A model generated the notes under the pieces. The model made no database searches. It saw nothing but the letters and a program-made list of their open reading frames with translations, and was not told the origin of the DNA. From Mya arenaria (lineage: Eukaryota; Mollusca; Bivalvia; Myida; Myidae), in the NCBI RefSeq assembly GCF_026914265.1, contig NC_069131.1, forward strand, positions 8,386,001 to 8,450,000: 64,000 nucleotides of DNA. The letters run 5' to 3'. Positions 10,504 to 42,530 of the stretch are shown piece by piece. The number at the start of each line of letters is the position of its first letter. Within the stretch, counting starts at the first letter, position 1. Position numbers and translations under genes: made by a program.

Positions 10504-10618
10504 ATGAACATATTCGGACTTAATGTTTCATCAAAATTATGCTTTTACAAGATGAATCGATTCGCGGTGGTTTTTATTTTTACATTATACCTGACTTTGG
10601 ATATATGCAAGTCTACTG
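10504..10618 (+). CDS. Gene 1 first exon, upstream version
   Basis: It encodes a classic signal peptide (MNRFAVVFIFTLYLTLDICK from 10552, with an in-frame ATG 48 bp earlier at 10504). The exon ends in phase 1 at CTACTG followed by the donor GTAAGA. It joins cleanly to the EGF exon at 15444 to give Gly-Thr-Gln-Cys. The Met at 10552 is the one shared with the second copy at 12788, so it is the more likely start. Confidence 0.75.
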
Positions 10619-13600: not shown

Positions 13601-16600
13601 TCTGCTACATCAATAACTTATGTGTTATATTAGAACCATAATCCTGTGACAAACTTGCATAAAGCCTCCATTGATTTAAAAAACAAAATGTTCAAGCTTT
13701 ATTACTAAATATTTCAAAGAAGTGAAAAAAAAGTAGATCAATAGCTCTAATAATATGTGGCAATCTGGCACATTTCTAGAACCATAAGTATATGACCCGT
13801 TTCTTCCAAATTTCCTCCCTCGTCATAAAGTGTTTTATTGAATCAGTTTACTTTCAACGAAAAAAAAGTAAGTGAATGTATTTTGATGAATTAACCAATG
13901 GTGAATGCATTTTTATAATTGTTTGTATTTATAAGTTTAAATGGTGACCCGCTGTTTCCAAAATGCCTCACGTGAAAAAAACATATTTAAAAGGTTTATA
14001 AGGCACAATTTATAAATTACTAATGACAATATACACAGTTACCCAGATGAGGATCTACTTGTTTAAGCTTCTACATTAAAACGAATTTGTTAGCTTTTCA
14101 CGCGTTGTTTTGTCACAAGTTAATTAAGTTGTTATCTTAAACCAAAATAAAAACAAAAATTCTGTATTAATCTTTACCTAGCATAAAACACATGACGTCG
14201 TTTGGCCACTTCATATAAAAAGCATCAAGGCACAGTGAACGCTCCTTTACTTTTGATAAGCAGTACAGATATAAAAATCTTTCTGATCAGTTAAGACACA
14301 TTATTTTTCACTGAAAAGCATTTTTTTATATTGACTTTAACATAATAAATACCGTATTTTGAATTCGCCCATTTTTAGCTCACCAGAGCACGAAGTGCTC
14401 AAGGTAAGCTATTGTGATCGGTCTTTGTCTGGCGTCCGTCCGTCCGTTTGTCCGTCCGTCAGTCCGTCCGTCAACAATTGCTTAAAAAACATCTCCTCTG
14501 AAACTATCTGGGCAAATTCACGGGAAACTTCCTTGGGTAACCCTCTACAAAAATACAAGTGGTCACGATTGATCAAAAACAGCAAAATTGCTGACTTCCT
14601 GTTTTGCTTTAAAAAACATCTCCTCTAAAACTACTAGTCCGAATTCAATGAAACTTTACCTGAAGCTTCCTTGGGTGACCCTCTACAAAAACAACAACAA
14701 GGGGTCACGATTGATCAACAAAATTGCTGACTTCCTGTTTTCCTGTAAAAAAACATCTCTGAAACTACCACTCCAAATTCAATGAATCTTTACAGGAAGC
14801 TACCTTGGGTGACCCTCTACAAAAATACCACAAGGGGTCACGATTGATCAGCAACAACAACAACCGCAACAACAACAAAATGGCCGACTTCCTGTTTTGC
14901 TTTAAAAAAAACATCTCCTCTGAAACTACCAGTCCAAATTCTATGAAACTTTACAGGAAGCTTCATTAGGTAACCTTCTACAAAAGTACAACAAGGGGTC
15001 ACGATTGATCGACAACAATAACAATATGGCCAACTTCCTGTTTTGCATTAAAAATCATCTCCTCTGAAACTACCAGGCCAAATTCACTAAAACTTTACAG
15101 GAAGCTTCCTTGGGTGACCCTCTACAAACATACAACAAGGCATTGAGATTGATTAACAATAACAACAACAAAATGGCCGACTTACTTTTTTGTTTTAAAA
15201 AAAAATCTCTGAAACGACCAGGCCAAATTCAATGAAAATTTACAGGTAACTTAATTACATGACTCTTTACAAATATAAAACATATGTTTAAATTGCAACA
15301 TTTGTATTAATGCTTTATCACAGAGTTGTGGCCCTTTCCTTAGGTGAGCGTTTTAGGGTCATCATGGCCCTCTTGTTTTATATATTGGCTTTGGAAACAA
15401 ACACAATTATAATAAACACGACTTTTTTATATTTCATTTAAAGGTACACAGTGCCCTGACTCTTGTGAAGCGTGTATTGATGCCGGTACCAATTTCGTGT
15501 GTAACTGCAGTAAAGGGGCGTATTATATTAACGGGGACTGTGCTCCATGTAGTACTTTTGGGATTAACTGCGAACGCTGTAGCAATGCGTCTCAATGTGA
15601 AGAATGCTTCCCTGGAAAATGGGGACCACATTGTATCAAAGACTGTGGAGATGGTTGTAAAGATGGTAAATGTTATTTTAAGGACGGGTCATGTACATGC
15701 ATTCAAGAATATTATGGATCTGACTGCAAAAATCAATGTTCAAAGAACTGCCTTTGCAGCACTTGCTTGGACAATGGTCACTGCAATTGCACACCAGGAC
15801 ATTATTTACAAACATGTAGTGCACCATGTTTCTCAGCATGTGAAGAATGTACTAACAGTTCTTCTTGCACTGTATGCCCGTTTGGGAAATTTGGAAACTA
15901 TTGTCAAAATAATTGTCAATGCAGTAACGAGACTAGCTGTGACATAATAACGGGTGACTGTATTTCTCGGACGTGTCCCCAAACGTGCACATCATGTGTT
16001 GACAGTGAACACTGCACTGGGTGCACTGTTGGTTGGTTTGGAGGTACATGTGGCTACGCGTGTTCCAGTAATTGTTTCGGGGGATGTGTTCAGTCGTCTG
16101 GTTTTTGTAATGCATGTTCACATCGATACTTCGGTTCAAATTGTGACCTAGAATGTAGTTATTGTAGTGACAATGATTGTACTCGAAATGGAGAATGTAA
16201 CAACTGCTACCCGGGATACTTTGGGACCTTTTGTAATTTAAATTGTCCTTCTACATGTCCTTCAAAATGCAATCAAGCGGACGGATCTTGTACTTTTTAT
16301 TGTCCTGCAAACTGCTTAACCTGTTCAGAGAGTTATTCATGCACTCGATGCAAAGACCTTTACTACGGGTATTTCTGTGGTTTATTGTGTAGCACTACGT
16401 GTAAACAGGGAAAGTGTGACATACAGTCAGGACATTGTGTGGAATGCAATTATCCATCGTACTACGGCGACTTTTGCAACACCAGCTGTAGATCAGCATG
16501 TTCAACAAATCGATGCGAAAGGCAAACTGGTAGCTGTTTTGGGTGCAAGGATGAGAAAATGTATGGAACGTTTTGTAATATAACATGCAACAGAAAATGC

Positions 16601-18993
16601 AAGGATGAAATGTGTTCACAAGAAAACGGTCACTGTATAAATGGATGTATACCTAATTATTATGGGTCAACGTGTGAAAATGTCTGCTCTAAGAATTGTG
16701 TCGGCTCCACAACAGAATCAAAATGTGACTCAAACGGAATGTGCATCAACGGATGTATCGACGGATTTATTGGCGATACATGTACAACGGGTATGTACCA
16801 AAATTGCATTTGTGTATTTACTCGTGTGTAATCTATGTCTGTCAGATTTCCATTATAATCTCTATAAATGCCTAAACCTTTATTTTTCATAGCAAATAAG
16901 CAGGACCCGTTTTCATATGCTATATATTACTACTTTAGTAATCATTTATGATATATATAAGGAACCCCGTTTTCTACCAACGAAATCAATTTTATTGATA
17001 AACTTGAAATCTTTTGTGTTAGTTCTTGCTTGTTTCATGAATACCTTTAATGGGGAGTACTCTTATTACTATATATCTTGGAAGGATAAACAATAAGCAA
17101 TAATAAGACTAATATATGTAAGACAAATTAGTGCAAATGAACATGAAATTAATATTTTTTGTCATTTAACACGCATTTAGGATTATTAAAATGTTTAGAA
17201 AGAGATGAAGTCGAAAAATGAATAATTTATTTTTAAAAAGTCGCAAAATTTAAATTTAAGACTAACAAACGTTAATCATGTGTTACAGCTATTAAAATTT
17301 CTGACAAGTAGAGTCAAAGACCATCACAAATAATACGGAGTAAGGAACTTGTTTAATTTGTTAACACATGAATGTATTATGTTAATTGATATATGTATCT
17401 GTATCAGAGGAAATAAAGAGCCTATGACTGTACGGTTGACACAATAATTATGGTCCCCTTGCAGCAGCCGTCGAACACATTGTGCCAGGAAACGTTAATA
17501 CAACGTCTCATAATTCTAGATAATCAATTATTTCATCATGGGTTTTAGAAGGCCATAACCAACAAACGGAAGAAACTAACTCTGGTTCTGTGATCGGTGG
17601 AACGGTTGGTGGTGTGATTGGCGTGTGTATTGTCGTAGCGCTGGTGGTGGTTGTGCTGGTATTGAAGAAAAAAGGGATTGTTCGGTAAAGTTGTCTTTTG
17701 AAACCTACCAAAGCTTAATAAACGTAAATGCATAAAGAATCACCATAAGTTTTTTTTTCTCGGATTACTGAACTTCACCGCTGTGTGTTTTTATCAATTT
17801 CATTTTACAATTGTTATTATAACGTTCTTGTTTTTTAAAAAAAATGTTAAGGTAAGACGGTTAAGAATCAATCTATTTTATGACAAAGACAAATAGAAAA
17901 GAAAAGAATTACTTGAAATCGGTAGCTCTGATTCTGGAGTCAATAACTGTATCGACTACACTACTTGGGACTTATACGTGGTGGATATAAGATTATAAAC
18001 ACATTCCTTATTGGCGGCGGAATTAGTCAAGTTACATTGTGTTGTTTAGGCAAATTGAATCTTCAGTTCTTTAGAACAAAGTTATTATGTTGCCGACGGT
18101 TTTCGTGACAAGCTGTTTGGTTATTTGAAGTGTTAAACAGGTCCAGTCTACCCTTTTCTGTAAAACATCGTTTGTGCATATCAAATGAGAGCGAATAAGC
18201 CGGAATATCGATGCCATTGATACTTTAACGTTTTCCTGTTCATTTTCCATACAGGAAGGAGAGCAAGAAGACCTATGAGGATATATCACCAGGAAAAATC
18301 CAAGATGAACCGTATACAACATTGGCAGTTGAGAGCACGAGTATATACATTTTGTTCCTTGCATTTTTGGTATACTGTCAGTGTATAGTTAATACATTAT
18401 AGTACAAAGTGTTTAAGTGACAACATGTCATTCCTTATTATTTGAACTTTTATCAGAATGAAAGCTAACTGTGACTATAGTTGAGTTTACTGGTACATTT
18501 TAAAAAATTGCCTTCGAATACAACAGGTAACAGGATATCATTTTATAAACGCTTTTCAGATACATTGAAGATTTGAAGATGCTCATTTTGGCGCATGAAA
18601 TTTTCAAGTTTAAATGGTACAGAGAGTATTCAAAAATGTTTTGGACAACAAAATAATGATTATATGCAAATATAATAGTTCCTATATAAAACAATCTTAA
18701 ATCAAATTACGCAGGTGTACACACTAATAAAAACAAATATTAAACCAATTCAAACTATTTCTGTTGGCCAAAATGTATGAGATCGAGAGCATTGTTAATA
18801 CTTACATCCTTCCATACTAAATGTTTTAGATGCTTAGTTAATAATCAGCATCATTTCCGTTACAGCCGAGTACGAAATACCCGATTCGGAGGCAAGGTCC
18901 GAGCTGACCATCGAAGGTGAAGACAACAGGGTGTATTACAATGATGAGATGGCCTACTACAAGAATATCGGGGGAAATGTTCATAAAACATGA
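10504..18993 (+). CDS. Gene 1: EGF-repeat transmembrane receptor with ITAM-like tail, no phosphatase
   Basis: Five exons join in phase: 10504-10618, 15444-16790, 17549-17684, 18255-18340 and 18866-18993. All have GT-AG borders and intron phases 1, 1, 2, 1, giving 603 residues. Order: signal peptide (about 1-38, a better-conserved Met being residue 17 at 10552), about ten Cys-rich EGF-like repeats of the MEGF/CED-1 type (39-487), a membrane helix (about 502-528), then KKK and a short cytoplasmic tail. The tail holds YEDI at 540-543 and YTTL at 553-556, an ITAM-like pair, then further tyrosines (EYEIP, VYYNDEMAYY). Family knowledge suggests a cell-surface recognition or engulfment role; that is inference. 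The ectodomain and tail resemble gene 2, but no phosphatase exons follow before 25186. The start exon could instead be the one at 12788. Confidence 0.82.
12300..12605 (+). mobile_element. Orphan tyrosine recombinase fragment (DIRS-type)
   Basis: The translation contains FRAAYVLAFFGVFRVSEL, which carries the first catalytic Arg region typical of tyrosine recombinases of DIRS-like retrotransposons. A polar stretch (KPHRRSDLVFE) and a degraded continuation follow. No reverse transcriptase is next to it. It lies between the two duplicated first-exon units of gene 1. Confidence 0.7.
12788..12860 (+). CDS. Gene 1 first exon, downstream paralogous version
   Basis: It encodes a second signal peptide, MNRIRIRIGYIFILYLTLDV followed by CKSSG. 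It ends in the same phase 1 at the donor GTAAGG and could join the same EGF exon at 15444. Residues match the upstream version at MNR, ILYLTLD and CKS. It may be an alternative first exon with its own promoter, or a relic of a partial gene duplication. The hydrophobic core is intact but three Arg precede it. Confidence 0.6.
13860..14372. other. Gene 1 intron, unassigned
   Basis: AT-rich intron DNA between the tandem duplication and the 14373 element. I see no gene, RNA or clear repeat structure. Confidence 0.5.
14373..15378. repeat. Interspersed element with ~125-155-bp internal tandem repeats
   Basis: It opens with TTAGCTCACCAGAGCACGAA and a (GTCC)n-like run at 14436-14471, and closes with TAGGTGAGCGTTTTAGGG and GGCCCTCTTGTTTT. 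Between them are about six diverged units starting near 14485, 14610, 14748, 14904, 15050 and 15198. Each has CATCTCCTCTGAAACTA, a GGAAGCTTCCTTGGGT-like string, CAAGGGGTCACGATTGAT and ACTTCCTGTTTTG. I have seen this layout as a non-autonomous repeat in bivalve DNA. The short ORFs across it are incidental. Confidence 0.7.
15444..16790 (+). CDS. Gene 1 EGF-repeat exon
   Basis: One 1347-bp exon encodes the whole ectodomain of 449 residues. Cysteines recur in a CxxxC..CxxC..GxxGxxC pattern with about ten units and Tyr/Phe-Gly pairs (YYGSDC, YFGTFC, YYGSTC). This is the MEGF10/Draper/CED-1 EGF-like or EGF-laminin type. N-glycosylation sequons such as NCS, NSS and NET are present. It starts after AAAG in phase 1 and ends before GTATGT in phase 1, so it could be swapped between family members without breaking the frame. 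Confidence 0.9.
17465..17523 (+). CDS. Alternative gene 1 exon start ending at a stop (secreted form)
   Basis: A pyrimidine-rich acceptor, CCCCTTGCAGCAG, precedes this segment and is a NAGNAG pair whose two cuts differ by one Ala. Joined in phase 1 to the EGF exon it reads AVEHIVPGNVNTTSHNSR then TAA at 17521-17523. Use of it would give a soluble ectodomain. The same stretch is retained in the decayed copies at 6176 and 61515, so it was probably once true exon sequence. Whether this acceptor or the one at 17549 is used cannot be told from DNA alone. Confidence 0.45.
17549..17684 (+). CDS. Gene 1 transmembrane exon
   Basis: It starts after GGGTTTTAG in phase 1 and avoids the in-frame TAA at 17521. 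After EGHNQQTEETNSG it encodes a Gly/Val-rich helix (VIGGTVGGVIGVCIVVALVV) and the stop-transfer KKKG. It ends in phase 2 at CG before GTAAAG, the same phase as the TM exon of gene 2 (28284-28437). Confidence 0.8.
18255..18340 (+). CDS. Gene 1 cytoplasmic exon with ITAM-like motif
   Basis: The acceptor is TTTTCCATACAG and the phases are 2 in, 1 out. It reads RKESKKTYEDISPGKIQDEP then YTTLAVEST. YEDI and YTTL are separated by nine residues. That fits the relaxed ITAM pattern YxxI/L-x(6-12)-YxxI/L known from Draper and immune receptor chains. The matching gene 2 exon (28626-28702) has PYEEYTD but no second YxxL, so the pair is specific to gene 1 here. Confidence 0.8.
18866..18993 (+). CDS. Gene 1 last exon
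   Basis: The acceptor is TTCCGTTACAG and the entry phase is 1. It encodes 42 acidic, Tyr-rich residues including EYEIPDSE, EDNRVYYNDEMAYYKN and GGNVHKT, then TGA at 18991. The VYY and YY spacing recalls the juxtamembrane exon of gene 2 at 30068-30234 (ENVYYIRLQ, LAYYEEEF). This suggests gene 1 is a family member that lost its phosphatase exons. Confidence 0.75.
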
Positions 18994-21900: not shown

Positions 21901-22560
21901 CTTGTAAAACTGCATGTAATGACAACAGTGAATGTAGAAATAACATTTTGCTTTAATAACCACATTCAAAAATAAAGAACATAAGTTCAACTTTCGCTCT
22001 TATATGAAAACCTTATATCCTTTTGACAAATGATATGTTAAGGCTCATCGATATTAAAAATTCATGGTCAGATATATTTTCAACAGTTCGATGCCACATG
22101 AGGCTATTGTCTTAATTGTTTCCTCGTGCAAATAAGTGGATACAACTGGATTATGCCATCAAGATGATGCATTGTGAGGACAATGACAAAAACGCTTGTT
22201 TTACTTTTTTACAACCTTCGTTAATACTGCATAATATTAATAGTGTGTCTTATATTCGAGTCTTGCTCTGATAGTTTGCGTTAAGTGAGAAATGTGTCCC
22301 AATATAAACTAACAACTGGCGGTACTTTTCACATTTTTCTTATATTATAACGGTCGATTTCTATAACCATAATTGTCAATTTTCCACTCAATGCAGTTGT
22401 GTTGCAATAATTCAACCATGCATTGCAAGTTGCAAGGGAGATAATGATACAAGTAAAATATCATCTGCAAATAAAGAATTAACTTCCATGGTTAAAAGAA
22501 CAGAGCATCCTTGGTTGCTATGGTCCAGTTGATAGACAGATATATACAGTTGTCAACATT
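18994..22560. other. Intergenic DNA between genes 1 and 2, first part
   Basis: No gene recognised. It contains the low-complexity tract at 19590-20430. The repeat-like stretch at 21430-21660 starts TTAAAGGGACTAGACACC, a string I associate with interspersed repeats in bivalves. No AATAAA lies close after the gene 1 stop. Confidence 0.5.
19590..20430. repeat. Degenerate A/C-rich tandem tract
   Basis: About 840 bp of very imperfect repeats of a core like CAAACAGACACTGAACAAA, with variants every 10-25 bp. Long minus-strand ORFs rich in Val, Cys, Phe and Tyr (19675-19962, 19929-20111) are by-products of the composition, not genes. Confidence 0.65.
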
Positions 22561-23290: not shown

Positions 23291-23369
23291 TGATGTATGC
23301 TGCTTAGTTCATGGGCGCCCTTCATCAATCCACAGTCTTTGCCTGAATCGAGCCTTGCTGTGGGTGTCG

Positions 23370-25185: not shown

Positions 25186-25261
25186 ATGCAGATAAAGGCT
25201 CAACACGTTCTTTTGAAAACAGTATTATTCGGGGTTCTTTTCGGATTTTATCTGTGCGGTG
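25186..25261 (+). CDS. Gene 2 signal-peptide exon
   Basis: It encodes MQIKAQHVLLKTVLFGVLFG then FYLCGG, a signal peptide. It ends in phase 1 before GTAAGC, as do both gene 1 first exons. It joins to 26686 as Gly-Thr-Gln-Cys, the same junction residues as gene 1. Confidence 0.75.
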
Positions 25262-28200: not shown

Positions 28201-31200
28201 AAAATACCGAAGATGTTTAACATTTATAATTAAGTTAAAGAAGTTTTATTGACTTTCTAGACATATACTCCTTGTAATTTAAGAAATAAGACACATAAAG
28301 ACTGAACTATTAAATACAGACACCAAAACGGATGAGTTATCAAATACTACAACTATTGCTGCAATTGGTGGAGGCATAGGAGGTGTTGTTGTGATTGCTG
28401 CCATTGTAGTGACGATCCTTTTCTTACTCAGAAAAAGGTAGTTACCGTATTTGATCAAGCACTTAATCAATTTAGATATATTTTTCCAATGATTGTGCTT
28501 TTAGATTTACTAGTTTATTTATATAACATGAATTGATATTATGTTTGATGACAAGTTATAATTGCAATCTTTCTCTAAAACACTTATATAGCTTTTGCTG
28601 AATGGATATTTCTGTTCAATTTTAGGAGAACACGAAAACCGTATGAGGAATACACAGACGGTGTTGGTAACGAACATCACTTAATCGGACCTGTTTCTGA
28701 AGGTATCAAAATTGATTTAACAACTTACATTGACAGAATGCTTTCACGATACCGTGACAAGATTATTGAGAAAAAACTATTAATATCAAGAAAATCAACA
28801 AAGCTTTTATTACTTTCTTTTAATCAAATTATGTTCTCAAAAGCACTACTTTTTCCAACAATGGACAATGTGTTTCGTGTATTGCAGCAAATGCTATGCA
28901 TTTTGCATGTTGGAATTGTGCACTAAAAAATAAGGTTATTAAAATATGAATACTTATTTGAAAAACTACAGAAACAAGCTCAGCAGCAGAAAAGTTAAAA
29001 CATAAACCCGGTTTAATGGCACTGGGTAAGCGTCAAAGACACAGAACACAAAAACAAACAATCAGTAACAAGAAACAAGGAAGAACAGCACAAAACTCCA
29101 CAAACAGCACAGTGCATACATAGTATATATAATAAACTAGGTATGTTTATCAAGGATTGCTCACTCTTATCACAACAATCCTAAATAAACAAAAAACGTA
29201 AAAAGTAAATCTTATCAAAGTATATATTAACTTGATGAAAAAAATAATAATAAACTTATAGGTAAACCCCAAGTACTTCAATTATAAGAGATCCCAACTC
29301 AATTTGTAGACGGAGAAAAACAATTCAGAGCACCTTATGCAACAAAAATCAAAGATATGATGCAGTCAATGTTTGAAGCTATGAGCATCACACACAGTCT
29401 GCCTTATAAAATAAAAGGTTTAAAACTGTGCGATCATAGAGTTTCAATATAAAAAGGATCATTGAACTTAAGCTGGGAACAAATAAAGAAAACATTATTA
29501 AAAATAAACGCGACATATATTAGCTAATCCTTTCTTCCGAATGATTACCTATGAAAAATATATGAAGAAAATGACGTCACATGCCAAAACACTCCGAGTC
29601 GAACGATCGAAAACATTTCGTTGGTTGAATGTTTTCAGGATGTCTTACATTTGTATTTTACAGACAGTCTAATGTCTAATTATTTGAACAAAGCATATTA
29701 TACCAAGCGAAAAGAAAATGCGACTGTGTTCGTGCCACTGTTAATAATTTTATCATCTTGTTGTATTTCTCAGGAGATAATAAAGCGAAAACATCACCAC
29801 AGACATCAGGATATAGTCCTGCTAGGTATGACACAGCTGCAAATATTGTAAGGATCGGTGAATCTTTGGAAGCCCGCGAAGAGGATGAACTTGAAATAGG
29901 TACAAAGGATAATTATATTTTGCTTAGCCTAATTTTTCAATGTTTTCAAGTTGATAATTGCTCCGATTAAGTTTTAAAGAAATATTTTTTGAAATCATCA
30001 ATAAATGTTAAATTATAGCGCTGATTCGGCCAAGTTTCTATAAACTAATGTACTCCTTCTTTAACAGACTTGGGCGAAGAGAGGAGAACACAGAAAAGGA
30101 AACTGGCCAAGAAGGTTGAGGAGAACGTTTACTACATCCGGTTACAGGATATCGAGAAACGAAAAGTGAAAGTGGAGGAAATGGCGGCTTTTGTTGCTGA
30201 AAAGACTCTGGCCTACTATGAGGAGGAATTTGATGTAATTTTGTATTAAATAACTTTAAAGCATCACAAGTTCATTGTAGTTTTGTTTAAGTATCTCCAA
30301 AAATGTTTCTCCAGAAAAACAAATAAATAAAGCTATAATTCCATGAAAGCAATTAATATTATTGTCACAACAACGCAAATTACGTTTACCACTTGTTTTG
30401 CTTCTTTTTCCCCCAGAAATTCTCTGACGGCCTCACAAGAAGCTGTGACGTTGCCAAATTACCTCTAAACAGGGCGAAAAACAGATACAAGGGATTATAT
30501 GCCTGTAGTTCTACCTTTTAAGTTTTTTTATCATTACACTGTTCCATGTACAATATATATCAATTAACATTTATTACACAGTAGTTCATTGACAAGTTCA
30601 TTTGGAAGCTAATGTTTGAAACAAAAAAACAACAAGTCTACAACTTTATCTGGAAATTATAATACTGTAGTAGTAGTAGTAGTAGTAGTTGCATTGTTAT
30701 TATTATTATTGTTATTATTAGTATTATTATTATTATTATTATTAGTATTATTTATTCCAGATGATGATACAAGGGTGAAAGTGACTGGTTTTGACACTGA
30801 CTACATAAATGCTAACTATATCGATGTATGTAAATTATAAATTCAAATACGGATATTCGTTGACTATAATAGTTTAATTATAATTATTTGAATTTTGAAG
30901 TGGAAGTGAAATAAATCACAGACGTATCAAGTATACTAATAACAATTACTATATTGATACTCTATTTGCAGGGCTTCAAGGAGAGAAATGCGTATATTGC
31001 TTCGCTTGGTAAGAATATAGGTTATACATTATTTTACATATCTATTGTGTCCTTCTATCTTTGATCCTCGAGTGATTTGGTTTAACAGAACCATTGCATA
31101 TCAGATACCTGTGTAATATTTCTAAGAGTGAGACAAACTACAGTATTACATTATTCGTCAAAGAGACAGGACCACGAAAAACAATAGTTATATACAAGTA

Positions 31201-34200
31201 TGAATAAAGGGACACTACTTGTAAGATGATTGCTATTCTATATTATCTAATCCTAGGTCCAATGTCGAAACAGATGGGAGACTTTGGCATGTTTTGGAAT
31301 ATGATTTGGCAACAGAAGGTGGAGAAGATCGTCATGGTTACAAACTTGATGGAGGATGGGGTCTGAAGACATCTCTATTGCTATGTTAAATATGTATTGA
31401 TTGACCAAACTTAAGCCCGCGTTTATAAGCTCACGCATATGAAACAGATACTCTTATTTTAACATTCAAGTACACCAATACTTATAAAAAGTATAAACCT
31501 ATTTAAATGGTTTCATTCACTGAATAATTGCTTATTGAATGATTGCTACTTTAACGTATAACATATATGCAATGTTAACATTTGAATTTGACATACAAGA
31601 ATATGATCAGTCAAATTTAATTACTGCACTCTCTGGTGCGATGGATGACAATAACCCACGGCAACATAACAAGATAACTAAATTGAAATCAGATTATATA
31701 ATTGGAAATTAAATCCCTTTTCCTTTCATTCAGAAAGAAAAATGCGAGCAGTACTGGCCCAATGTTGGGATCACTATAAACTACAGCGGGGTGATGGTCA
31801 CCTGTCAGAGCGAGAATGAGTATGCAGATTTCACGAGAAGGTTGCTGCTCTTAAATGATGTAAACATATTTCAATGTTGTTTTAACATATTGTGACATAC
31901 ACAATCTTTATTTATTGCAATCATAATTTGCATCCGTATCTAAAATCACATTGTTTTGATCACGTGAATGAAGGGAAGTTTAAGAAATTATTTAATATGA
32001 GTTAAAGTTGTTTTCAATGTATACATCTCTCATTTCAATTTAAATCTCAACAACAACAATTATTATTATTATTATTATATACATGAACACAAATCAGTTA
32101 GACGGATGTGCCCACTTTACAATTTAAACACTTGAACGTTACAAATAGTTTCCATAACTTAGCGAAAATTTGGTTAAATACACGGAAGATTAAATAGTAC
32201 TCAAACTTAATGTAAAGCTTCCGTAAATAATGATGATTCACTTCACACTTAACAAACACAAAGGGATTGCCATTGTATGGAAGATTGCTTAATTAACATA
32301 TTTTCGTTTAAAGTCCTTTGCTGAATTACATGAATTCCACGATATCAATATAAACTTACAAGGAAAGATAACACAAATTCACTTGTTTGAAGCATTCTTT
32401 CGAGTTTTGGTCGCTGCCCAAATTATAAAAATTAGTGCAAACTGACATATGTACTCGATCTTATTAGATTTTGGTATTGTTTTCTTCAGCACGGAACCTT
32501 AAATGTATGTGACACTTCAAATATATCAGAGTTTAAAAGCAATAACTCAATATATTTTCTTAATACACTATATAGGTTAAGAATGAAACAAAACACACAT
32601 TAACAATAACTGAAATATTAAGGTCAACTACAGCGGGGTCTAGATCACCTGTTAGGGCAAGGAAGTGTAATTTAAAAGTGACGTTGTTGCAGCTGCATCA
32701 AGATACATTACCATTAACCAGTGTGCTTAGAAGACCAATTTAAAACTTAAGAAACATATTCGTAGTCATCAAATTATTGAAATATTCGGATAATTCCACC
32801 TTAAAATTTGAACACTTGAACGTCTAAACCATTCACTTGGTAGTTTGACAAGGTTTAATAATAATATAGACAAAATACACGGAAGTTTAAATAGTACGCA
32901 AAACAAAATTTAAAGGCCCCGTAAAAGATGATGATTGTTTTGAATGCACGCTTCCGAAATAAATACGACAGACTTACGGAGAGATAGACACGTTAATGAA
33001 TATTTTTTTTTTAACTTCCGTGTTCAATGAGATTGAAGTAATACGTATTTTTTTACTATTTACGTATTATATAACGTTTTAAAATATATGCGTCCTAGTG
33101 ATTCTGCTGAAAGTGCTTTGTTGAATTAGATGAAGCACTTGACATTAATATCAATATATTACCAGGAAAGATAACCAGGTTTTACTCGTTATAAGCTTCA
33201 TGATGAGTAACAGTTTAAAATTTCACACAATTAATACAAACCAATTAAATAATGATATTGTTATTGAAAGATCAAAAGCAGTGAGTTGGTTGTTAAATGC
33301 TGTTAAAAACGAAGTTGCGTTATATATTATACCTAGAGTACACTGACATTTAAATATTGTAAAACTGCACTTCTTTAATGGCGTTTTATAAAATAGAGTG
33401 AAGTAATTAGGTCGGTCAGGATACATGTGTTCAATAAATACAAACACATTTAAGAACTACATCAAATGAAACTTGGCAGCAGTATGCTTTCCCCTGGACT
33501 ACGGCATCATAACTGTATGGAATCAACAAAAGGACCAAACTAACAACGATCAATTGTTTCAGTTACAGTCGAAACCCGTTAACTCGAACTGATGTTAACG
33601 GGCCGATTTCATTATACTGAAGGAAAACATTACCGCTTGGCTCGAATTTTTCGAGGCTCGAGATATTTTCGCCGGTCCCTTGGAGTTCGAGCCAACGGGA
33701 TTCGACTATATATACAATGAATAACTATGTACCACCTATGACAAACTGTACAAAGTCTTGTCAGTGTACAGGCAACTGCACAAAGTCCTGTCGGTGCGCA
33801 GGAACCTGTCTCAATAATGTCAGTGTGCAGGCAACAGTATCAAGTCCTGTCAGTGACTATGCAAGCAATATGTATTATCATTTTGCATGCAAGAAGTTTT
33901 GTAATCGTTCTGACAACGCAAGAATGCAAGCAAGAAGTCCTGTCAGTCGATAGGCAAGAAGTTGTGTCAGGGTGCAGGCAAAATGTAATTTCTGAGTACA
34001 GTCAAGAAGTCCTGTCAGAGTGTATGCGGGAAGTCCTGTCAGGGTACAAGCAAAACGTATGCAGTCGAATACAAAGAGACATTACAAGACTGTGATTGTA
34101 ATATTGATTTGCAGTATAATGCAAGAACATGCATCATTGTTAGATAACACGACTTGTGCTGTTTTGACCATATATGATAACAGTCAATAGTTATGATCAT

Positions 34201-37200
34201 TGTGCAATTTATTTTTCAAATTATACTGTACAGACTTTATAAATAATAGATGAAGATCATATTCATGCAAACCCTTTTAAGATTTATTAATAAATATATA
34301 TTCGTCTTAAAACATTTCCACTAAGACACAACTTATCGGATTTAAAAATATTTCTGAATGTTCCAATCTTCCACACTTGCTCAACCCGTGTCAATTGGTA
34401 AAGTCAACACGTAAAACAGCACAAATTCTACAACATTTGACATTACTTATTCATTATCCATAGTTTAAGTTTAAAGTTGCATTGCCATTAATCAGCAGGC
34501 CCAGAAAAGGTTGGGGTGAAATAAAGAGGGAGAAATAGTGAGAGAGAAAAAGGTGTATGGGGGGGGGGTCTGTAAAGTTTTAAAACTATGCCAATATGGA
34601 GTCAGCAAACAAAAGGCAATTCAACAAATAGGTAGGTATATCTTGATAGAAAGTACATCACTTAAGTATGTTTTTATAGTTATATTCGGGACATAGACCA
34701 TCAGCTAAAAGACATAATACAAATTATTTCAGGGCAAATCTGAGCGGCAGCTGCACCACCTCCACTTCACGGCCTGGCCTGATAGGGGAATCCCAGAGGA
34801 CGTAACAGCGCTGATTGAGTTCCGACATAGAGTGCTCCATTCTCCTGCCCTTCTCGGCGGTCCAACGCTGGTCCATTGCAGGTGTAGATTGTTTATAAAT
34901 TATTATTCATTTGCTTAGGCCTCTGCTTAGTTTTAAAAAAGAACCATTCGAGAGCGTCGCTGAGCGGTCCAAAAGTATAGGTATGTTGTAACATTGTACA
35001 GTTAATGATGGTAAAAGAGCGGAACGTTAATGCACTGACTAAATTGAGACAGATAGTCCTTTTTGCTCCTGCTTATCTTGGAGGCCAGTTACAGTCGATC
35101 CCCGTTGGCTCGAGTCCCAGGGTCCGGCGAAAATACCTCGAGCCTCGGACAATTCGAGCTTAGCGAGACTGCATACATTCAGTATAAATACGGTCTTTAT
35201 ATCAAGTTCGTGCCAACGAGGAAATCTGCCAAGCGTGTCACGGTGCTGATTAAGTTAAGAAAGATGGTTCTTATTGCTGATTGTCCTAGTACATGTTGAT
35301 GTCCCAAAGCTGGTCAAGCATAGTCATATTTGACTTCTCTTATTATAATGAGTTTATAATGAGTTTGTCCTGAACTGATTGTCTTACAACACGGGTAACA
35401 ATATTACGGACCATTTAAAAGAAACACATTACTAAGGGGCCTGAAATCTCTCTCAAGTTCATGAGCATTAAGTCAGACAAAGATTAATATATCACAAATG
35501 CCCTGAGTGTATTATTTGTACGCGTTGAAACAGAACCAGCGATAAACACGTCTTAAGCTATATAATTATGTGTCCCTTTAAAAAGCTCTTGCAAAAGGTT
35601 TTTAAGTGGTCTAATGGTATTGGTGTCCACCTCTCACTCAAGAGGTCGTGTGTTCGATCGCCATCAGTGGAACCATTTCTTGGCCTCTAAAATATGACAT
35701 AGTATGGGTACCGAACGACTCAAATGATTTATATTAACTGTCAGCACTCTTTACAATGGAGCTGAAAATATTTTGTATAAATAAATAAAGTACCTCATTT
35801 TACCATATGTTACGAATGATATCTTCATATCTGGCTCTACCTTTCAGTGCGGGAATCGGTATAATCTATTAAAGGAAGGTAATTCGAACAAGGCCATTGA
35901 GATTCCAGGATGCATCATCAATATGAGACAGAACAGGCCAAACATGGTCCAGACTGCGGTAGGTTGACGTTTGAAATCCATGAACCACATAGAACATAAT
36001 ATTAATGACAAGGTAATAGAGAAATGCATATTTAACTGTAGGAATGTGCAGGAAATATCGATACAAACTGAATTCTTGCTTTATATCGTGCCTTAGATAT
36101 TGAGTGCTATATTTTAGTTACTCAGTCATGAACGTCTTGAAGATAATGCCTATTGTATAAGTACTGTACACATTATGTTCTTTGCAGCCTCAATGGCTTA
36201 TTAGTTGTATATTTTCTCGAAAGAGTTTGTTTGTCTACGTTTACATGTCATATTTGAAGTACACACTGTTTATGCTTGATTTCTGATATGCGTTTCTATA
36301 GAACCAATGAACACAGTAACGGACCATGAGTAAAATATATATTCGTTTCCTGATTTCAGGAACAGTACAAGTTTCTACACCTTGCCCTGGTTCACACCCT
36401 GACCTTAAACAGTGAGCAGATATCACGACAACAGTTCCAGAACTACATGATCGAGACCAACAAGGACGATCTTATCACGCAGTTTAAGGTAACGGAACTA
36501 AATTTTTCCTTAATGTAAGTAAAACTATGAAATAATCTTCAGTCTATAAGTAGTGTTATACTTAAAATTATATGTCGCTGTTAACTTGGTATTTAAAGTG
36601 TATTTGTCCAGATACAAACACTCAAATGAAAGTGATGTGCACAAAACTCTAATCAGGCTAATATTGGCAGTTAAATTCTAAATGTATTTAATTCCTGTTT
36701 CTGGGAAAAATATGCATATGTATATATGCTTAGAACGCAAACGCAATGGTACTTAAAAATACTGCTCCTGTGCAGAAAATAACGGACACTCCCCACGTTC
36801 ACACTGACGATGAAATCGTTGCTATAGAACGAAACAAGTCTGAGAAAGGAAGGAACAGAAGTGGAGCAGATATTCCAGGTACATTTATGTAAACTATATC
36901 GCGCACATTCTTTGCTAAGTTTCCCATTGTTTTTTTTAGTATCATTTAGTTTTCATTTATTACACCTAATTATGACTGACAATTTTGGGTTGAGCATTAC
37001 ATCATGGACAATGCATTGTTTAATATACACTAGCGAGTATTAAAATGACTGAATTGACACATCGCATGTTGAACAAATGCAATTAATACAATGGACAATA
37101 AATGAAAGATGCACCACAGATCATCATGTAATATAAAGCTGCAATTAATACAATTATTGCATTTCGGGAAGTCCGGATCTGCAACAAATTACTCGAGACG

Positions 37201-40200
37201 AATATTAAATCCACGATCAGAATGGAGTAACAATAACCTACTTTATGATATACCAATCAAATATATACAAGCCATACGTATCGGAAAATACGCTTCATCT
37301 CTGCTGACCTCATGCCATAACAAGTATTATTGCGCGATGTAAAACTGACGTCCTATCAAAATGTAAAATAATGTTATACAACGCTACTTAAAAATGATTT
37401 AACTTAAAATGTATATAATAAAAGGTTTATTATCTTCAGGCGATGAAAACCGCCCTCGACTTTATCTGGGCATAAGACATGGAGCTTCAGACTATGTCAA
37501 CGCTGTCTTTGTTCATGTAAGGGTAGATAATATTTTATATAATATATTATACTCTTAAAGAATATAATTATTTTCAAACAGGCTCTGAAATAATATTTGC
37601 TCATATAAATGGCAGTTTTTCAAACATATAAAGCCAGTTAAAGTTGATGACTATTAACGTAATCAGAACATTTGTTTGAAAATCATGTTCTGTTTACTTG
37701 TATAAAAATGTCATACCGGCACCTTTATCTCCAGTAATATATTCGTGTATCTATCGCCGTGTATTCAATTTGATTTGCAGGCGTTTCAGGCGAATCGGAA
37801 ATACATTCTCGCCCAGTCTCCGATGCCAAATACTGTACAGGACTTCCTTACTTTGGCATACCAAGAAAATTGCTCCTGCATTGTCAGCTTTGAACAAAGT
37901 GACGGCACAAAGGTACGATAAAGAAAAATAATCGTCCTTGCCTCATCGTCAAAAGTCTGTAATAAGTCGAATCGATGAAATAACATGATATGAACTGTTC
38001 TCTCTTGCTGCCATTTTATACCCAGACAGAAGAGCATGATAATTTTCATTAATCTCCCACTGTAGAAGATACCCTCAAAGTCTTAATAAAATACCTCTTA
38101 TGTTCTCCTTATTTATGGAATTTCATTGAAAAAACATTAACATTAATTTCAACAGGATATGGGTGAATATAATCCAGCGGACAATCAAGTGCTCAAGAAA
38201 GGTCAACTCTCTGTTACATGTGGTAGGGATAAGGTCGCGAACGAGTATAGTATCCAGAAAGGACTAACTATTGAGTTCACTGGAAGCACACAGGTTAGTT
38301 TCATATCGTTTAAATATAGCTAAATTTACATCATTTGAAAGAAGATTACCTTTTTAAAAACAAGAAGGTAATTTCGACGTAAAAATGTATAGGGATGCAA
38401 TCAAGAACAGATAGTTATTTTAATACTTGCTTTGCTTTGATAAGAAATAAAATGGTATACGAATAGAAGAGCATATGCCCAGTTAGGGACTGTTTTTACA
38501 TTTTCAATACTCGGAACAGTTTTGAAACTACGACCCTTCAAAATATACCACTGACATCAATTTTGAGACGTATGTCATATTTTTGTGTTCCAGATACAAT
38601 AACCGATATTTTCATCAATTCTTCGTTTACCGCTATGAAATTTCAACCTCAAGTACGTCTTGTGAAAACGTTCACGCACATATATTTTTCTGTCGCTTGT
38701 TTTACGTTTTTTATTTTAAATTCGTCTAAAACGTCATTTTTCGCGGGAAAAACGGCGTCGTGTTTCGCTAAAAATAGTGCTAGTTTAATTTTTGATTTTT
38801 TTTAAATACATGTATTCAATGTTTTGTTACAAATCGCCTGATATCAAGAAAAGGGAACCTTACCGACTTCGTTTTTGCGCAGTATCAAATAAAAACAAAC
38901 CAAAAAAAATAATCGACAAAAATCTGCATTGTAATAAGCACAAACGGATCCAGGCAGTAGAGGGGTGCAAACGCCCCCCCCCCCCCCCTCACCTCCCCCC
39001 CTCTTAAAATCATCCAAGTTTACTTCTGTATGTCACTATCGGAGAAAATTATAAAAATATACAGATCTATAAAATACGCGACTATAGAGTTCAGTGTTTC
39101 GAATCAAAGTTTGATGTAGCCAATCGGTTATTATTGACTAAGTTTGGTAGTGAATTCAACTCTTGAACAACTTTAAATGAGAGCCATTTGTTACGCAACG
39201 GTTGGGGGAGAGGTGGGGGATGGTCAGTTCTTGACGTTAACAAATGATCGGTCATTCTTTGAACAGAAAGAAAATGTTTCATGTGGTCAATATCGAGGGG
39301 TAAATGCGAAAAGGCTCTTAGTGACATTAAATAAAGAATCAGATAGAATTTTTTCGCTTTCACCCGTCGATATATAACGGGGTCAGAATTGAATGTAACA
39401 TCTGCGTTAATTTAAAACACACTAAAATTATAAAGTGAAACTCTTATAAAAAATCAATATTTCACATGTATAACAAACATCAATTTTGACTGATAAACCC
39501 TTACATCTTACTAAATAATAAATTCATGCAAAATGTTTTTCACTGATTACAAGATTGTAACTGTTTATTTAATATTAGAAAGCGCAAAAATGATTCATTT
39601 GTTGGTGAATGCTAAAGGATTTACTATGGTCTCATAAGGTAGAAATATCGTGTTTTATGCACATTTCTTTCAAATTAAACTCGGTATACTTCATAAGAAC
39701 CATTGTTTTCGATATTGTTTCATTCTTAAAGGCATATTAAAACAATAGTATTAGTTGTGGTAAATCGTATTTGTGTTTAATACTTGCGCTTAAATGATGA
39801 TCTTATAGTGAATGTTTTTAGTGCAGTAAATGTTTAATTTTGTTTATCAACGCATTGTTTGTTTTAATCCATAACGAGTTATTCTGTTTTCTTGACTTTA
39901 CCACGCAATCAAAGCTTCTTGTGCTTACAAGCAACTTCATGAAACAACTTTCGGCGATGCATTCAATGCCCATTATACAGAAGCCAACATAGCTACCTTA
40001 TCCCACAGTCAAGGTATCTGCCGTGCGTACAATGGCTGTGCATGTGTGTGTGTGCGTGCGTGTGTGTGTGTGTGCGCGTGCGCGTGAGCGCGTGCGCATA
40101 CATGCATGCGTGTGTACGCGTGCTTGAGTGTGAGATGGTGTGTGTGGTGCGTTTTTACGCGTGCTTGCATGCGTGACTTTATTGTACGTCTTGTGTGTGT

Positions 40201-42530
40201 GTTTGTATGTAAGCTATAACCACCCTTAACAAAATGAGATTATAGTAATATTTAAAGATGCACTCTTACTCCCCCAACTCAACTTAACTCAACTCAATAA
40301 CTTTTTCCAATTGGCTGGAGATATTCATAATATATACAAACATTGATAGACATAGAACATAAATAATATTATATATATATACGTATATGCAAGAATAGTA
40401 CAGTTTAAAATTATAGCATATTGGTGTCAAAATATTTATACAAATATTGTACGATATAGCTTCATATCTAAGTATAAATAAAAAACTTATATTCTACATG
40501 CAAATAAAATTAGTCTATTTGACTTCCATGACAGTAAGGTCGTATGAGATCCGCCGCTTGGATGCAGAAATCTTATCGAAAACAATGGTTCTTATGAAGA
40601 ATACCGAGTTGATTTGAAAGAAATGAGCATAAAACATGGTATTTTTACGTTATCAGATTAGAGTAGACCACAGTAAATATTTTAGCATTCACCAATCATT
40701 TAATATTTTTGCGCTTTATGTTATTAAACACGCGGTTAAAATCTTGTAATCAGTAATTAATAGTTTCCATCAATGCATAATTGAGTAAGAAGTTTTATAA
40801 GACAAGATTGATATTGTTTATGTATTGATTTTGAATAAGCGTGTCACTTTAACTATATAGTTCATTTATCAGTGCTATAATAATTTAATAATGTTTACAA
40901 TTAACGTAAATAATAGTTCGATTAACATCATGCAAAACGTTTTAATACAATACGTATTGAAAAAGAAAAGGTATAGGGGTTAGAGTATTTGATACTGCGC
41001 AAAAAAGAAGTCGGTAAGGTACCCTTTTCTCGATATCAGGCGATTTGTAATAGAACATTGAATACATGTATTTAAAACAATCAAAAATTAAACGAGCATT
41101 TTTTTCAATAATTAAAGAAAGGCGCACTTTTTTCAGCGAAACACGACGCGGTTTTTCCCGCGAAAAATGACGTTATAGACGAATTTAAAATAAAAAAAAC
41201 GTAAAACAAGCGAAATAAAAATATATGTGCGTGAACGTTTTCACAAGACGCACTTGAGGTTGAAATTTCATAGCGGTAAACGAAGAATTGATGAAAATAT
41301 CGGTTATTGTAGCTGGAACGCAAAAATATGACAGACGTCTCAAAATTGACATCAGTGGTATATTTTTAAGAGTCGTAGTTTCAAAACTCTTCCGAGTATA
41401 TGCTCTTCTATTCGTATACCAATTTTCAGACAGTAACTAGAAAATTCGTTCATAGTCGCGTTCCACCTTAAGTTTTTCTATGACATTAATGAAAGTATAC
41501 GTTTAAATATGATTGTAGCATTGGTTTTCGTTACAGAATGAAGGTGGCAAGAGTACATTGCGACACTTTGAGTTTACAGACTGGAACCGGACTGGAAATG
41601 TTCCATGCAGCCCTGCTAAATATGTTGCATTTCTGAAAGATGTCAAAATGGCATCGTCCAATGGGCCTGTTCTTGTCCACTGCAGGTAGTACAAAAACGA
41701 GCTACGAAATACATGCGTTACCGTTGGATTTTATTCCCGAACTCATTTTACATCTCTGGATTGCGAAAATAATGAATTTTATAAATACTCTTATTTTTAA
41801 ATTATAATTATTTGTCTTGTTTTAGTTTATCTGGTATAAGGGGATTTGGGACAAAGTATGTTTTTGTTAACTTACATTCATTTTAACCAATCTAATATAC
41901 TATATCATATAGGGATGGGGGTAGTAAGAGCGGGATGTTCTGTGTTATGGCATTCCTCGTGGAGAAGATGGTAGTAGAGCACGAGGTCAGTGTGGTAAAT
42001 GCCGTCAGGAAGGTCAAGGCCAGGAGACCCAACGCCGTTCCCAATCAGGTACGCTTAACCATTCTAATTGGTTTCGATTCTGAAATCCCAAATATATGTA
42101 CTTAATTCAATTGGGCATTTAGCCTATGAACGAAATATTCAAAATAAATAAATCCAATATATGTTTAATTTATAACGGTAATGGCTTATACGCAAACTAT
42201 GTATGCGTAATACGGGATAAAATAATGTTTGGTTTTTCTTTGAAACCTTTTTTTCTCTTTTGTAAATAATAAGCGTAATTTAAGCTAAGTATTTTCAGGG
42301 AATAACGATGACAACCCCAATCTTTCCAAGTAGTGTGCGATATAATATCTTCAACTTAATATCCTTTAGAAATAATGGAAATAACTGTGAATCATAACTT
42401 AAAGTAATGCGTGTAACCTAAGTGTCTTGATATTCTCAATTTGTAGGCACAGTTCGACTTCTGCCATGATTGTGTTCTGGAGTTTGTCCGTTCGTTCAAA
42501 ACATACTCCAATATCGGCGGAAATACATAA
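25186..42530 (+). CDS. Gene 2: EGF-repeat receptor tyrosine phosphatase (D1 broken)
   Basis: Twenty-one exons join in phase: 25186-25261, 26686-28164, 28284-28437, 28626-28702, 29774-29899, 30068-30234, 30417-30504, 30761-30825, 30972-31008, 31257-31360, 31734-31859, 34733-34881, 35848-35958, 36360-36488, 36776-36878, 37440-37516, 37781-37912, 38156-38293, 41537-41685, 41913-42048 and 42447-42530 (stop TAA). Only 35848-35958 breaks the frame. The product would be about 1245 residues with the missing piece. Order: signal peptide (1-25), EGF-like repeats (26-518), membrane helix (about 541-565), juxtamembrane region, PTP D1 (about 694-930), PTP D2 (from about 960). Family knowledge: a surface receptor whose D1 removes phosphate from tyrosines. 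As read here, D1 has lost its catalytic Arg and D2 is inactive, so this copy is a pseudogene, a damaged allele, or encodes a truncated form. Confidence 0.82.
25262..26685. other. Gene 2 intron 1
   Basis: AT-rich. A minus-strand ORF at 25743-25937 (64 residues, acidic middle EDVETNEEEMGPRG) is compositionally less random than its neighbours but matches nothing I recognise. Nothing else stands out. Confidence 0.4.
26686..28164 (+). CDS. Gene 2 EGF-repeat exon
   Basis: A single 1479-bp exon codes for 492 residues of about ten to eleven EGF-like repeats, with the same Cys spacing and Tyr/Phe-Gly pairs as gene 1 (YFGAAC, YYGNSC, YFGTKC). The frame is open from the acceptor TTCAAAG to the donor GTACAA, phases 1 and 1. 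The repeat order aligns with gene 1 to the last unit (the ENVCSKNC segment against DQECSQGC). It probably binds an extracellular ligand; which one cannot be said. Confidence 0.9.
28284..28437 (+). CDS. Gene 2 transmembrane exon
   Basis: After a short stalk (DTKTDELSNTT) it encodes a helix AAIGGGIGGVVVIAAIVVTI and LFLLRKR. The acceptor at TAATTTAAG is the only nearby AG that keeps phase 1. The exon leaves in phase 2. Gly-rich start and phases match gene 1's TM exon. Confidence 0.8.
28626..30234 (+). CDS. Gene 2 juxtamembrane exons
   Basis: Three exons (28626-28702, 29774-29899, 30068-30234) encode the link between membrane and D1. The first has RTRKPYEEYTDG. The second has SGYSPARYDTAANIV and an acidic run. 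The third is charged and likely helical (RKLAKKVEENVYYIRLQ, ending LAYYEEEFD). Tyr residues in PYEEY, VYY and AYY are candidate phosphosites. There is no ITAM spacing here, unlike gene 1. Confidence 0.75.
28957..29275 (-). mobile_element. SINE-like repeat, inverted copy in gene 2 intron
   Basis: The reverse complement matches the element at 5175-5595, including CACTGGGTAAGCGTCAAAGA, GCACAAAACTCCACAAACAG and AATAAAC-rich ends. It sits in the intron between 28702 and 29774. Confidence 0.7.
30417..35958 (+). CDS. Gene 2 phosphatase domain D1 exons
   Basis: Seven exons (30417-30504, 30761-30825, 30972-31008, 31257-31360, 31734-31859, 34733-34881, 35848-35958) encode D1. Visible landmarks in order: KNRYKGLY, TDYINANYIDG, IASLGPMSKQ, FWNMIWQQ, KIVMVTNLMEDG, KCEQYWP, the WPD loop HFTAWPDRGIPED, and the P-loop start LVHC-SAGIG. 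After SAGIG the expected Arg and about nine following residues are missing. The frame then shifts to YNLLKEGN, IPGCIINMRQNRPNMVQT. Deletion size must be 1 modulo 3, about 28 bp by comparison with normal PTP domains. The Q-loop MVQT remains. Confidence 0.85.
30667..30750 (+). repeat. Trinucleotide microsatellite beside a splice acceptor
   Basis: A (GTA)n run then a long (ATT)n run end just before TTTATTCCAG, the acceptor of the D1 exon at 30761. The ORF across it is an artefact. Length changes here lie in the branch-point and pyrimidine-tract region. Confidence 0.85.
31760..33200 (+). repeat. Tandem duplication of a D1 exon with its intron; second copy decayed
   Basis: The exon string AACTACAGCGGGGT..ATGGTCACCTGTCAG in 31734-31859 recurs at 32624-32660 as AACTACAGCGGGGTCTAGATCACCTGTTAG, now with stops. 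Intron DNA that follows also recurs: 32100-32280 against 32795-32960 (AACACTTGAACGT, TACACGGAAG, TTAAATAGTAC) and 32303-32370 against 33100-33175. The second exon copy is unusable. Confidence 0.7.
33566..33712. mobile_element. MITE with TIRs, Tc1/pogo-type
   Basis: About 147 bp with inverted ends. CAGTCGAAACCCGTTAACTC on the left matches, with a few changes, the reverse complement of the right end GAGCCAACGGGATTCGACT. TA occurs at both outer borders, consistent with a TA target. A related partial copy lies at 35090-35175. It is non-coding and presumably moved by a transposase elsewhere. Confidence 0.65.
33736..34075 (+). repeat. Diverged minisatellite
   Basis: Imperfect units of about 24-30 bp built on AAGTCCTGTCAGTGTGCAGG repeat about a dozen times. 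The overlapping Cys-rich ORF (33717-33953) is produced by the repeat and is not an EGF exon. Confidence 0.7.
35090..35175. mobile_element. Partial MITE related to 33566-33712
   Basis: TACAGTCGATCCCCGTTGGC and CCGGCGAAAATACCTCGAGC match, in inverted sense, the right half of the MITE at 33566-33712. The other end is not preserved in recognisable form. Confidence 0.5.
35600..35795 (+). mobile_element. tRNA-derived SINE
   Basis: The head resembles a tRNA. An A-box-like TGGTCTAATGGTATTGG lies at 35610-35626, and a B-box-like GTGTTCGATCGCC at 35650-35662. The anticodon-arm-like stem ACCTC/GAGGT lies between them. A non-tRNA body follows to an A/T-rich tail (ATAAATAAA near 35780). No closed acceptor stem, so it is not a functional tRNA gene. 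Confidence 0.6.
36360..42530 (+). CDS. Gene 2 phosphatase domain D2 exons
   Basis: Eight exons (36360-36488 finishing D1, then 36776-36878, 37440-37516, 37781-37912, 38156-38293, 41537-41685, 41913-42048, 42447-42530) all keep frame. D2 landmarks: DYVNAVFVH, RKYILAQSPMPNTVQDF, ENCSCIVSFEQ, the WPD position read as FTDWNRTGNVP, the P-loop HCRDGGSKSGMF and ARRPNAVPNQAQFDFCHDCV. The P-loop keeps Cys but has Lys where the catalytic Arg belongs, and the WPD Asp is absent. This is the usual state of a regulatory D2. The end is SFKTYSNIGGNT and TAA at 42528. Confidence 0.85.
38454..41423. repeat. Three-kb foldback in a gene 2 intron
   Basis: Outer arms 38454-38893 and 40989-41423 are inverted copies (sharing GGTATACGAATAGAAGAGCA at the tips and TTCAACCTCAAGT inside). 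Inner arms 39465-39735 and 40575-40840 are also inverted copies. The inner arm family also occurs at 198-530 and 46620-46950. The loop holds a C-run at 38975-39000 and the (TG)n tract. It splits D2 between exons 38156-38293 and 41537-41685. No transposase seen. Confidence 0.75.
40040..40205 (+). repeat. TG/CG dinucleotide microsatellite
   Basis: An imperfect (TG)n/(CG)n run with GTGCGTGCG variants, in the loop of the 38454-41423 foldback. Alternating purine-pyrimidine of this kind can adopt Z-DNA. Confidence 0.85.

Follow-up and report, generated by a model that had tools for sequence, protein, structure and literature searches.

Clam receptors with like EGF-type ectodomains and either ITAM-like or phosphatase tails: a possible case of tail exchange in Mya arenaria, with one broken phosphatase member

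Receptors of the Draper/CED-1/MEGF10 group have an N-terminal EMI domain and cytoplasmic tails with NPxY (as in CED-1) and/or YxxL motifs, and the ectodomain of Draper is EGF-like. One such receptor of Drosophila occurs in two forms, Draper-I with an immunoreceptor tyrosine-based activation motif (ITAM) and the inhibitory Draper-II. According to excerpts of PMC8092387, the inhibitory splice form binds the cytosolic phosphatase Corkscrew, and the erasers that act on Megf10 and CED-1 are entered there as not reported. In mammals, CEACAM1, with an immunoreceptor tyrosine-based inhibitory motif (ITIM), and its ITAM-like relatives combine like ectodomains with opposed tails, and parts of PMC2832619 describe how gene conversion and recombination maintain the likeness of CEACAM pairs. 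More generally, paired receptors are defined in excerpts of PMC3533184 as having similar ectodomains and opposed signalling, with clustered genes whose expression overlaps, and the activating/inhibitory pairs are best known from vertebrate immunoglobulin (Ig) and lectin families. Here we describe two neighbouring receptor genes, gene 1 and gene 2, in a stretch of 64,000 nucleotides of contig NC_069131.1 of the bivalve Mya arenaria (hereafter the window), together with the receptor family to which they belong. This family resembles the Draper forms in setting an ITAM-type tail against a putative inhibitory one, but the clam tails are on separate genes rather than splice isoforms and the phosphatase belongs to the receptor itself. 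Likewise, it shares like ectodomains and contrasting tails with the CEACAMs, which differ in being mammalian and in having Ig domains and ITIMs instead of an EGF-like ectodomain and an intrinsic protein tyrosine phosphatase (PTP). We tentatively propose, with close to an even chance of being right, that members of this family carry either an ITAM-like or a tandem-PTP cassette behind like ectodomains, that these cassettes have been swapped and may serve writer-reader-eraser signalling, and that gene 2 is a broken member. Among the papers listed in searches of the open-licence literature, none was named as dealing with mollusc EGF-type receptors that alternate between ITAM-like and PTP tails.

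Both genes in the window encode single-pass, Cys-rich SCARF/MEGF-like receptors, in which an ectodomain held by one exon ending in phase 1 is followed by one of the two cassettes. Gene 1 comprises five exons with GT-AG introns, from 10504 to the stop at 18993, and its translation is 100% identical to the public model P0001 over 603 aa. Gene 2 spans 25186-42530 in 21 exons and corresponds to the model P0024 ('PTPRF-like protein, partial'). Only these two genes were read in DNA; the relatives outside the window were public protein models, which come without positions. The exons are as follows.

10504..10618, plus strand: gene 1 exon 1, signal peptide with a phase-1 donor, 100% identical to P0001
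12599..12941, plus strand: orphan second signal exon with its flanks, inside gene 1 intron 1, 70% identical to 10378-10698
15444..16790, plus strand: gene 1 exon 2, the entire Cys-rich EGF-like ectodomain in one exon of 1347 nt, predicted fold best matching SCARF1
17549..17684, plus strand: gene 1 exon 3, transmembrane segment
18255..18340, plus strand: gene 1 exon 4, ITAM-like pair YEDI-x9-YTTL
18866..18993, plus strand: gene 1 exon 5, tail end TEYEIP...VYYNDEMAYYKN and stop
25186..25261, plus strand: gene 2 exon 1, signal peptide (P0024)
26686..28164, plus strand: gene 2 exon 2, ectodomain, about 40% identical to gene 1 and 82% to the short-tailed P0028
28284..28437, plus strand: gene 2 exon 3, transmembrane segment
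28626..28702, plus strand: gene 2 exon 4, juxtamembrane, YEEY...HHLI in the place of gene 1's YEDI...YTTL
29774-29899 and 30068-30234, plus strand: gene 2 exons 5-6, juxtamembrane and start of the first phosphatase domain (D1)
30417..34881, plus strand: gene 2 exons 7-12, D1 with KNRY and WPD motifs, up to VHC, identical to P0033
35848..35958, plus strand: gene 2 exon 13, D1 P-loop, broken (net 25 nt short; Arg and frame lost)
36360..36488, plus strand: gene 2 exon 14, Q-loop side of D1 (EQYKFLH)
36776..42530, plus strand: gene 2 exons 15-21, second phosphatase domain (D2), open, pseudo-catalytic HCRDGGSKSG, stop at 42530

A preliminary description of this DNA had seen two tandem genes of opposite tail type that share the layout of signal, EGF and transmembrane exons with the same intron phases, and this is borne out, since the phases after exons 1-4 are 1, 1, 2, 1 in gene 1 and gene 2 alike. 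Its further statement that the ectodomains match does not stand: the EGF-like exons are only 41% identical (182/440; 40% for the ectodomains in a separate comparison), despite the conservation of 85 of 87 aligned Cys. A blastn comparison of the gene 1 and gene 2 regions was empty at 1e-3, so that neither is a recent DNA-level copy of the other. Each is nearer to a paralogue of the other tail type. The nearest ectodomain to that of gene 1 belongs to the PTP-tailed P0003 (77% identity) and the nearest to that of gene 2 to the short-tailed P0028; in a tree of 18 Mya rows (8 short-tailed and 10 PTP-tailed), both couples are sisters, with support values of 100/99 and 96/85, respectively. The short-tailed P0004 and the PTP-tailed P0006 likewise count as sisters. 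It is therefore in these opposite-tail sisters, at 77% and 82%, that the conserved shared ectodomain of a paired receptor is found, and gene 1 and gene 2 were rejected as each other's pair.

At the level of the family, the comparison of ectodomain phylogeny with tail type favours the paired-receptor idea of the preliminary description. The Mya ectodomains form three clades (gene-1-like, gene-2-like, and a third), and among the public models both tail types are present in all three. The 18-row tree requires a minimum of 6 tail changes, of which its starred branches force 5, against a mean of 6.2 when labels are shuffled (as few changes as observed sufficed in 289 of the 500 shuffles of PTP labels), and a single short-tail clade is rejected (approximately unbiased test, p-AU 1.2e-8). 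This tree omits P0032 and P0033, whose ectodomains are scrambled or partial, P0030, whose in-frame stretch is too short, and five models judged by eye to duplicate included genes (P0014, P0024, P0027, P0029, and P0031). A 13-row tree that drops five models named in the style of another annotation, with P0028 still included, gave 4 tail changes (2 forced; shuffled mean 4.7) and a p-AU of 3.3e-37, although there the sister of gene 1 was unresolved and the program warned of long branches meeting. When the tree was widened to 29 rows, with 13 of the other matches taken in, P0012 and P0026 also omitted and long branches outside Mya, 9 tail changes were counted (shuffled mean 9.5), and two further opposite-tail sisters appeared, P0048 (short)/P0034 (PTP) and P0058 (short)/P0042 (PTP), supported by the Shimodaira-Hasegawa-like approximate likelihood ratio test (SH-aLRT) only; P0034, P0038, and P0054 were called PTP-type in this tree from juxtamembrane or D1-start sequence alone. 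The invertebrate paired-receptor idea fares better as tail mixing across the family than with gene 1 and gene 2 as the pair.

Identities along the proteins point the same way. In their transmembrane segment and tail, P0028 and P0032 share 79-92% identity with P0001, P0002, P0004, and P0005 (86-92% with P0001 and P0004), whereas the ectodomain of P0028 is only 37-40% identical to theirs; for this comparison the ends of P0028, P0032, and P0010 were trimmed where these models depart from the tail. The arrival of the short cassette behind the gene-2-like ectodomain thus seems recent. When PTP-tailed rows of the gene-2-like clade are compared with those of the other clades, the transmembrane and juxtamembrane part is 28-38% identical and the compared D1 stretch 86-96%; D1 seems, from these values, to be conserved or homogenised across clades.

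The YEDI-x9-YTTL pair reported for gene 1 is indeed present, within a cytoplasmic tail of 77 aa that also holds TEYEIP and VYYNDEMAYYKN; this tail has YxxI/L motifs and no NPxY. The short tail type occurs in nine Mya proteins including gene 1, and in six aligned short tails 26 positions are invariant, six of them Tyr. These eight other proteins and the invariant positions led us to reject the idea of gene 1 as a dead truncation standing by itself. A scan for YxxL/I-x6-12-YxxL/I was positive in 8 of the 9 family short tails, the ninth (P0012) having YEDM-x10-YSTL, and negative in all 12 PTP-tailed rows that showed a membrane segment, some of which are second models of one gene (no such segment was detected in P0011, P0024, and P0033, which fall outside the 12). 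In PTP-tailed rows the first motif reads YEDR, YKDR, YEDQ, or is YEEY-like, as in gene 2. Among 20,000 shuffles of the gene 1 tail, a YxxL/I pair at x6-12 arose in 2.8% and at exactly x9 in 0.4%. Comparable tyrosine pairs are found in short-tailed relatives from other molluscs (e.g. P0023, P0047, P0057, and P0063), and the motif by itself therefore does not set Mya apart. We also observed NPSY in the juxtamembrane regions of P0003, P0006, and P0008 (3 of 7 PTP-type sequences aligned), and in neither gene 1 nor gene 2.

Gene 2 had been described as carrying a D1-D2 phosphatase tail, opposed to the tail of gene 1. The exon inventory of both domains is there, and 20 of its 21 exons are open (1-12 up to the VHC of D1, 14-21 throughout), but exon 13 measures 111 nt where intact P0006, P0007, P0008, P0025, P0026, and P0030 all (6/6) need 136 nt. 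Its in-frame reading is SAGIGIIY followed by a stop, with the catalytic Arg absent, and the HCx5R P-loop expected in D1 of an active receptor tyrosine phosphatase is missing; in D2, Lys stands at the place of the catalytic Arg. The P0024 model leaves exon 13 just past the catalytic Cys and ends about 20 residues beyond it, in intron sequence. As assembled, gene 2 cannot be an active phosphatase and is a broken member of the PTP type, at best an inactive or decoy receptor, and the pair in the window is therefore not one of a kinase-coupled receptor and an active phosphatase. The additional residues GDFGMFWNM of gene 2 were considered as a lesion and rejected, as other members carry them. Besides P0033, which has a different ectodomain, gene 2 exons 11, 12, 14, and 18 are nearest to P0006 or P0003 (95-98%), both of which also have other ectodomains.

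It is nevertheless conceivable that gene 2 is truly an intact phosphatase receptor and that the short exon 13 reflects an assembly error or a rare allele, considering that the remaining 20 exons are open and their splice phases fit. We regard this as unlikely: a net loss of 25 nt would be atypical of base-calling error, and the model of P0033, which is another locus by its ectodomain although its D1 exons 7-12 are identical, ends at the same place (exon 13 of P0033 itself being unseen).

Elsewhere in the family, six relatives have a complete P-loop and the WPD motif in D1, as modelled, which is what an active receptor tyrosine phosphatase would show: P0006, P0007, P0008, P0025, P0026, and P0030, with HCSAGIGRTG, make up 6 of the 15 PTP-type rows. 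Of the nine rows that lack the D1 P-loop, P0024 and P0033 stop at VHC, P0013 is cut earlier, and six (P0003, P0009, P0011, P0014, P0027, and P0031) skip the P-loop exon at one in-frame junction, PTL|EQYEF. This skip may stem from annotation practice or reflect a genuine splice form, the products of which would be inactive phosphatases; it was not counted as biology because P0008 and P0030, which contain the exon, are by eye other models of the gene of P0014 and of that of P0027/P0031, respectively. Where D2 is modelled, its loop reads HCRDGGSKSG or alike (HCRDGGSRSG in P0009). The PTP half of P0025 has its best solved relatives in PTPRS (4bpc, E 1.9e-101) and LAR (1lar, E 1.2e-98), from which the family differs in the ectodomain. 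The ectodomains of LAR and PTPRS consist of Ig and fibronectin III domains and are not EGF-like.

With regard to how such a family might arise and act, recombination within the phase-1 intron behind the ectodomain exon, together with gene conversion and tandem duplication, could keep exchanging cassettes, and repeated exchange would place like ectodomains on both tails. Upon clustering by ligand, a Src-type kinase might phosphorylate YEDI...YTTL, the phosphorylated pair might dock a tandem-SH2 kinase of the Syk/Shark type and start engulfment or adhesion signalling, and PTP-tailed siblings from the same clusters would strip these phosphates or tune the kinase. The overall scheme would be a Draper-like writer-reader-eraser system with the eraser built into a sibling receptor. 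A further possibility, which we hold more loosely than the exchange of cassettes itself, is that the family constitutes a modular invertebrate paired-receptor array, with the phase-1 intron as the recombination joint, such that each specificity would soon exist in an 'on' and an 'off' form and the inhibitory member would bring its own phosphatase rather than recruit SHP. If true, this would suggest that the paired design can arise independently, with EGF-like ectodomains and built-in phosphatases, and the family would offer a system for asking how phagocyte receptors acquire an 'off' partner. For the clam receptors, the labels 'immune', 'haemocyte', 'shared ligand', and 'opposed' are ones that we infer. 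Measured against the definition of paired receptors, like ectodomains are found in the clam family, and there are partial signs of opposed signalling and of clustering, the latter from the tandem of opposite tail types in the window and from the listing of the main-tree relatives on a contig of one and the same length, 74,570,910 bases. Bearing on expression, excerpts of PMC13070813, an oyster transcriptome paper, describe higher levels of draper-like as well as receptor PTP transcripts in circulating agranulocytes than in mucosal ones.

Several observations weigh against cassette exchange and writer-reader-eraser signalling. Both short-tailed gene-2-like members are odd models, P0028 ending in unrelated sequence and P0032 having its tail in the middle of the protein, and apart from gene 1 and gene 2 the tails are known from protein models. 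The spacing of the gene 1 pair (x9) agrees with the relaxed x6-12 and not with the strict x6-8 of the ITAM consensus YxxL/I-x6-8-YxxL/I. In addition, the nine P-loop-less rows noted above are counted here, as is a profile comparison (hhalign) of the short tail with the PTP juxtamembrane region, in which only 7 columns were aligned at a probability of 0.5%. Finally, opposed signalling is not a given because receptor PTPs can also activate Src kinases.

An alternative that we consider somewhat unlikely is a birth-and-death family of EGF-type receptor phosphatases, in which the short tails would be receptor PTPs minus their catalytic exons and would have no paired function. Both tails do open with a juxtamembrane exon of the same phase that holds a K-x-Y-E/K-D/E stretch, and several members look broken: gene 2 and, by eye, P0027/P0030 with an out-of-frame stretch and P0013 cut short. 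Yet the short tail is conserved at its 26 invariant positions, including six Tyr, across six paralogues, for which recent homogenisation could also account, and the same profile comparison gives little sign of descent of the short tail from a PTP juxtamembrane region. Less probable still, and in our view quite doubtful, is that the swapped tails are an artefact of gene models, or real splicing, joining an ectodomain exon to a neighbour's tail. The phase-1 ends of the ectodomain exons in the window are compatible with either membrane exon, P0032 and P0028 are odd fusions, and a second signal-peptide exon (12782-12862, followed by a GT donor and 63% identical over 27 aa) lies in the first intron of gene 1, where it is possibly an alternative first exon of that gene or a relic. 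Against such joining, each ectodomain exon in the window is less than 0.8 kb from its own membrane exon, and the tail mixing survives the dropping of the five other-named models, a set in which P0028 remains. We prefer, tentatively, exchange of ITAM-like and PTP cassettes behind like ectodomains.

As to the ectodomain itself, gene 1 contains the tandem EGF-like Cys modules of an EGF-like or class F scavenger receptor. A CxxC variant of the EGF pattern matches it 9 times, against 1.1 in shuffles, and two PROSITE-type EGF patterns match only 1 and 0 times. Among solved structures, the gene 1 protein was closest in sequence to human SCARF1 (scavenger receptor class F member 1; E 0.0048), which was also the top fold match of its model (E 4.2e-7, with low TM-scores of 0.07 and 0.24), alongside Delta-like, Notch, and laminin EGF matches, all with low TM-scores. 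The model has a mean predicted local distance difference test (pLDDT) score of 68.2 and a predicted template modelling (pTM) score of 0.29, with 371 residues at pLDDT 70-90, a single membrane helix at 510-528, and a tail (526-603) below 50. Pfam returned nothing for both ectodomain open reading frames at 1e-3 or for P0001 at E up to 1, and no EMI domain was matched at E up to 1, a weak test given that the gene 1 EGF modules were equally missed. We know of no PTP-tailed relative of SCARF1. Among molluscan receptor PTPs, Mercenaria P0045 and Mytilus P0052 share with the clam family a Cys-rich ectodomain, a membrane segment, and a PTP tail, and an expanded PTP-like gene family is described for Mercenaria in excerpts of PMC8905726.

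The receptor pair is bracketed by a direct repeat, that is, a segmental duplication in the same orientation, with main blocks 92-99% identical.

1..8754, plus strand: left copy, upstream of gene 1, main blocks 92-99% identical to 46423-64000
46423..64000, plus strand: right copy, downstream of gene 2 and broken up by segments that the left copy lacks

The right copy still matches at the end of the window (64,000), which is 1.75 kb short of the expected next first exon; in window coordinates the next unit would thus fall at about 65,700, since the left copy stops 1.75 kb ahead of the first codon of gene 1. This suggests a further receptor unit beyond the window, repeated with the duplicated segment, and such a unit is accordingly predicted rather than shown. 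Within the right copy, on the minus strand at 48807-53221, there is an element resembling a long interspersed nuclear element (LINE), so labelled by eye from long frames that resemble endonuclease and reverse transcriptase; three of its frames gave zero Pfam matches at 1e-3. A tandem array with a 31-nt unit occupies 44970-45756.

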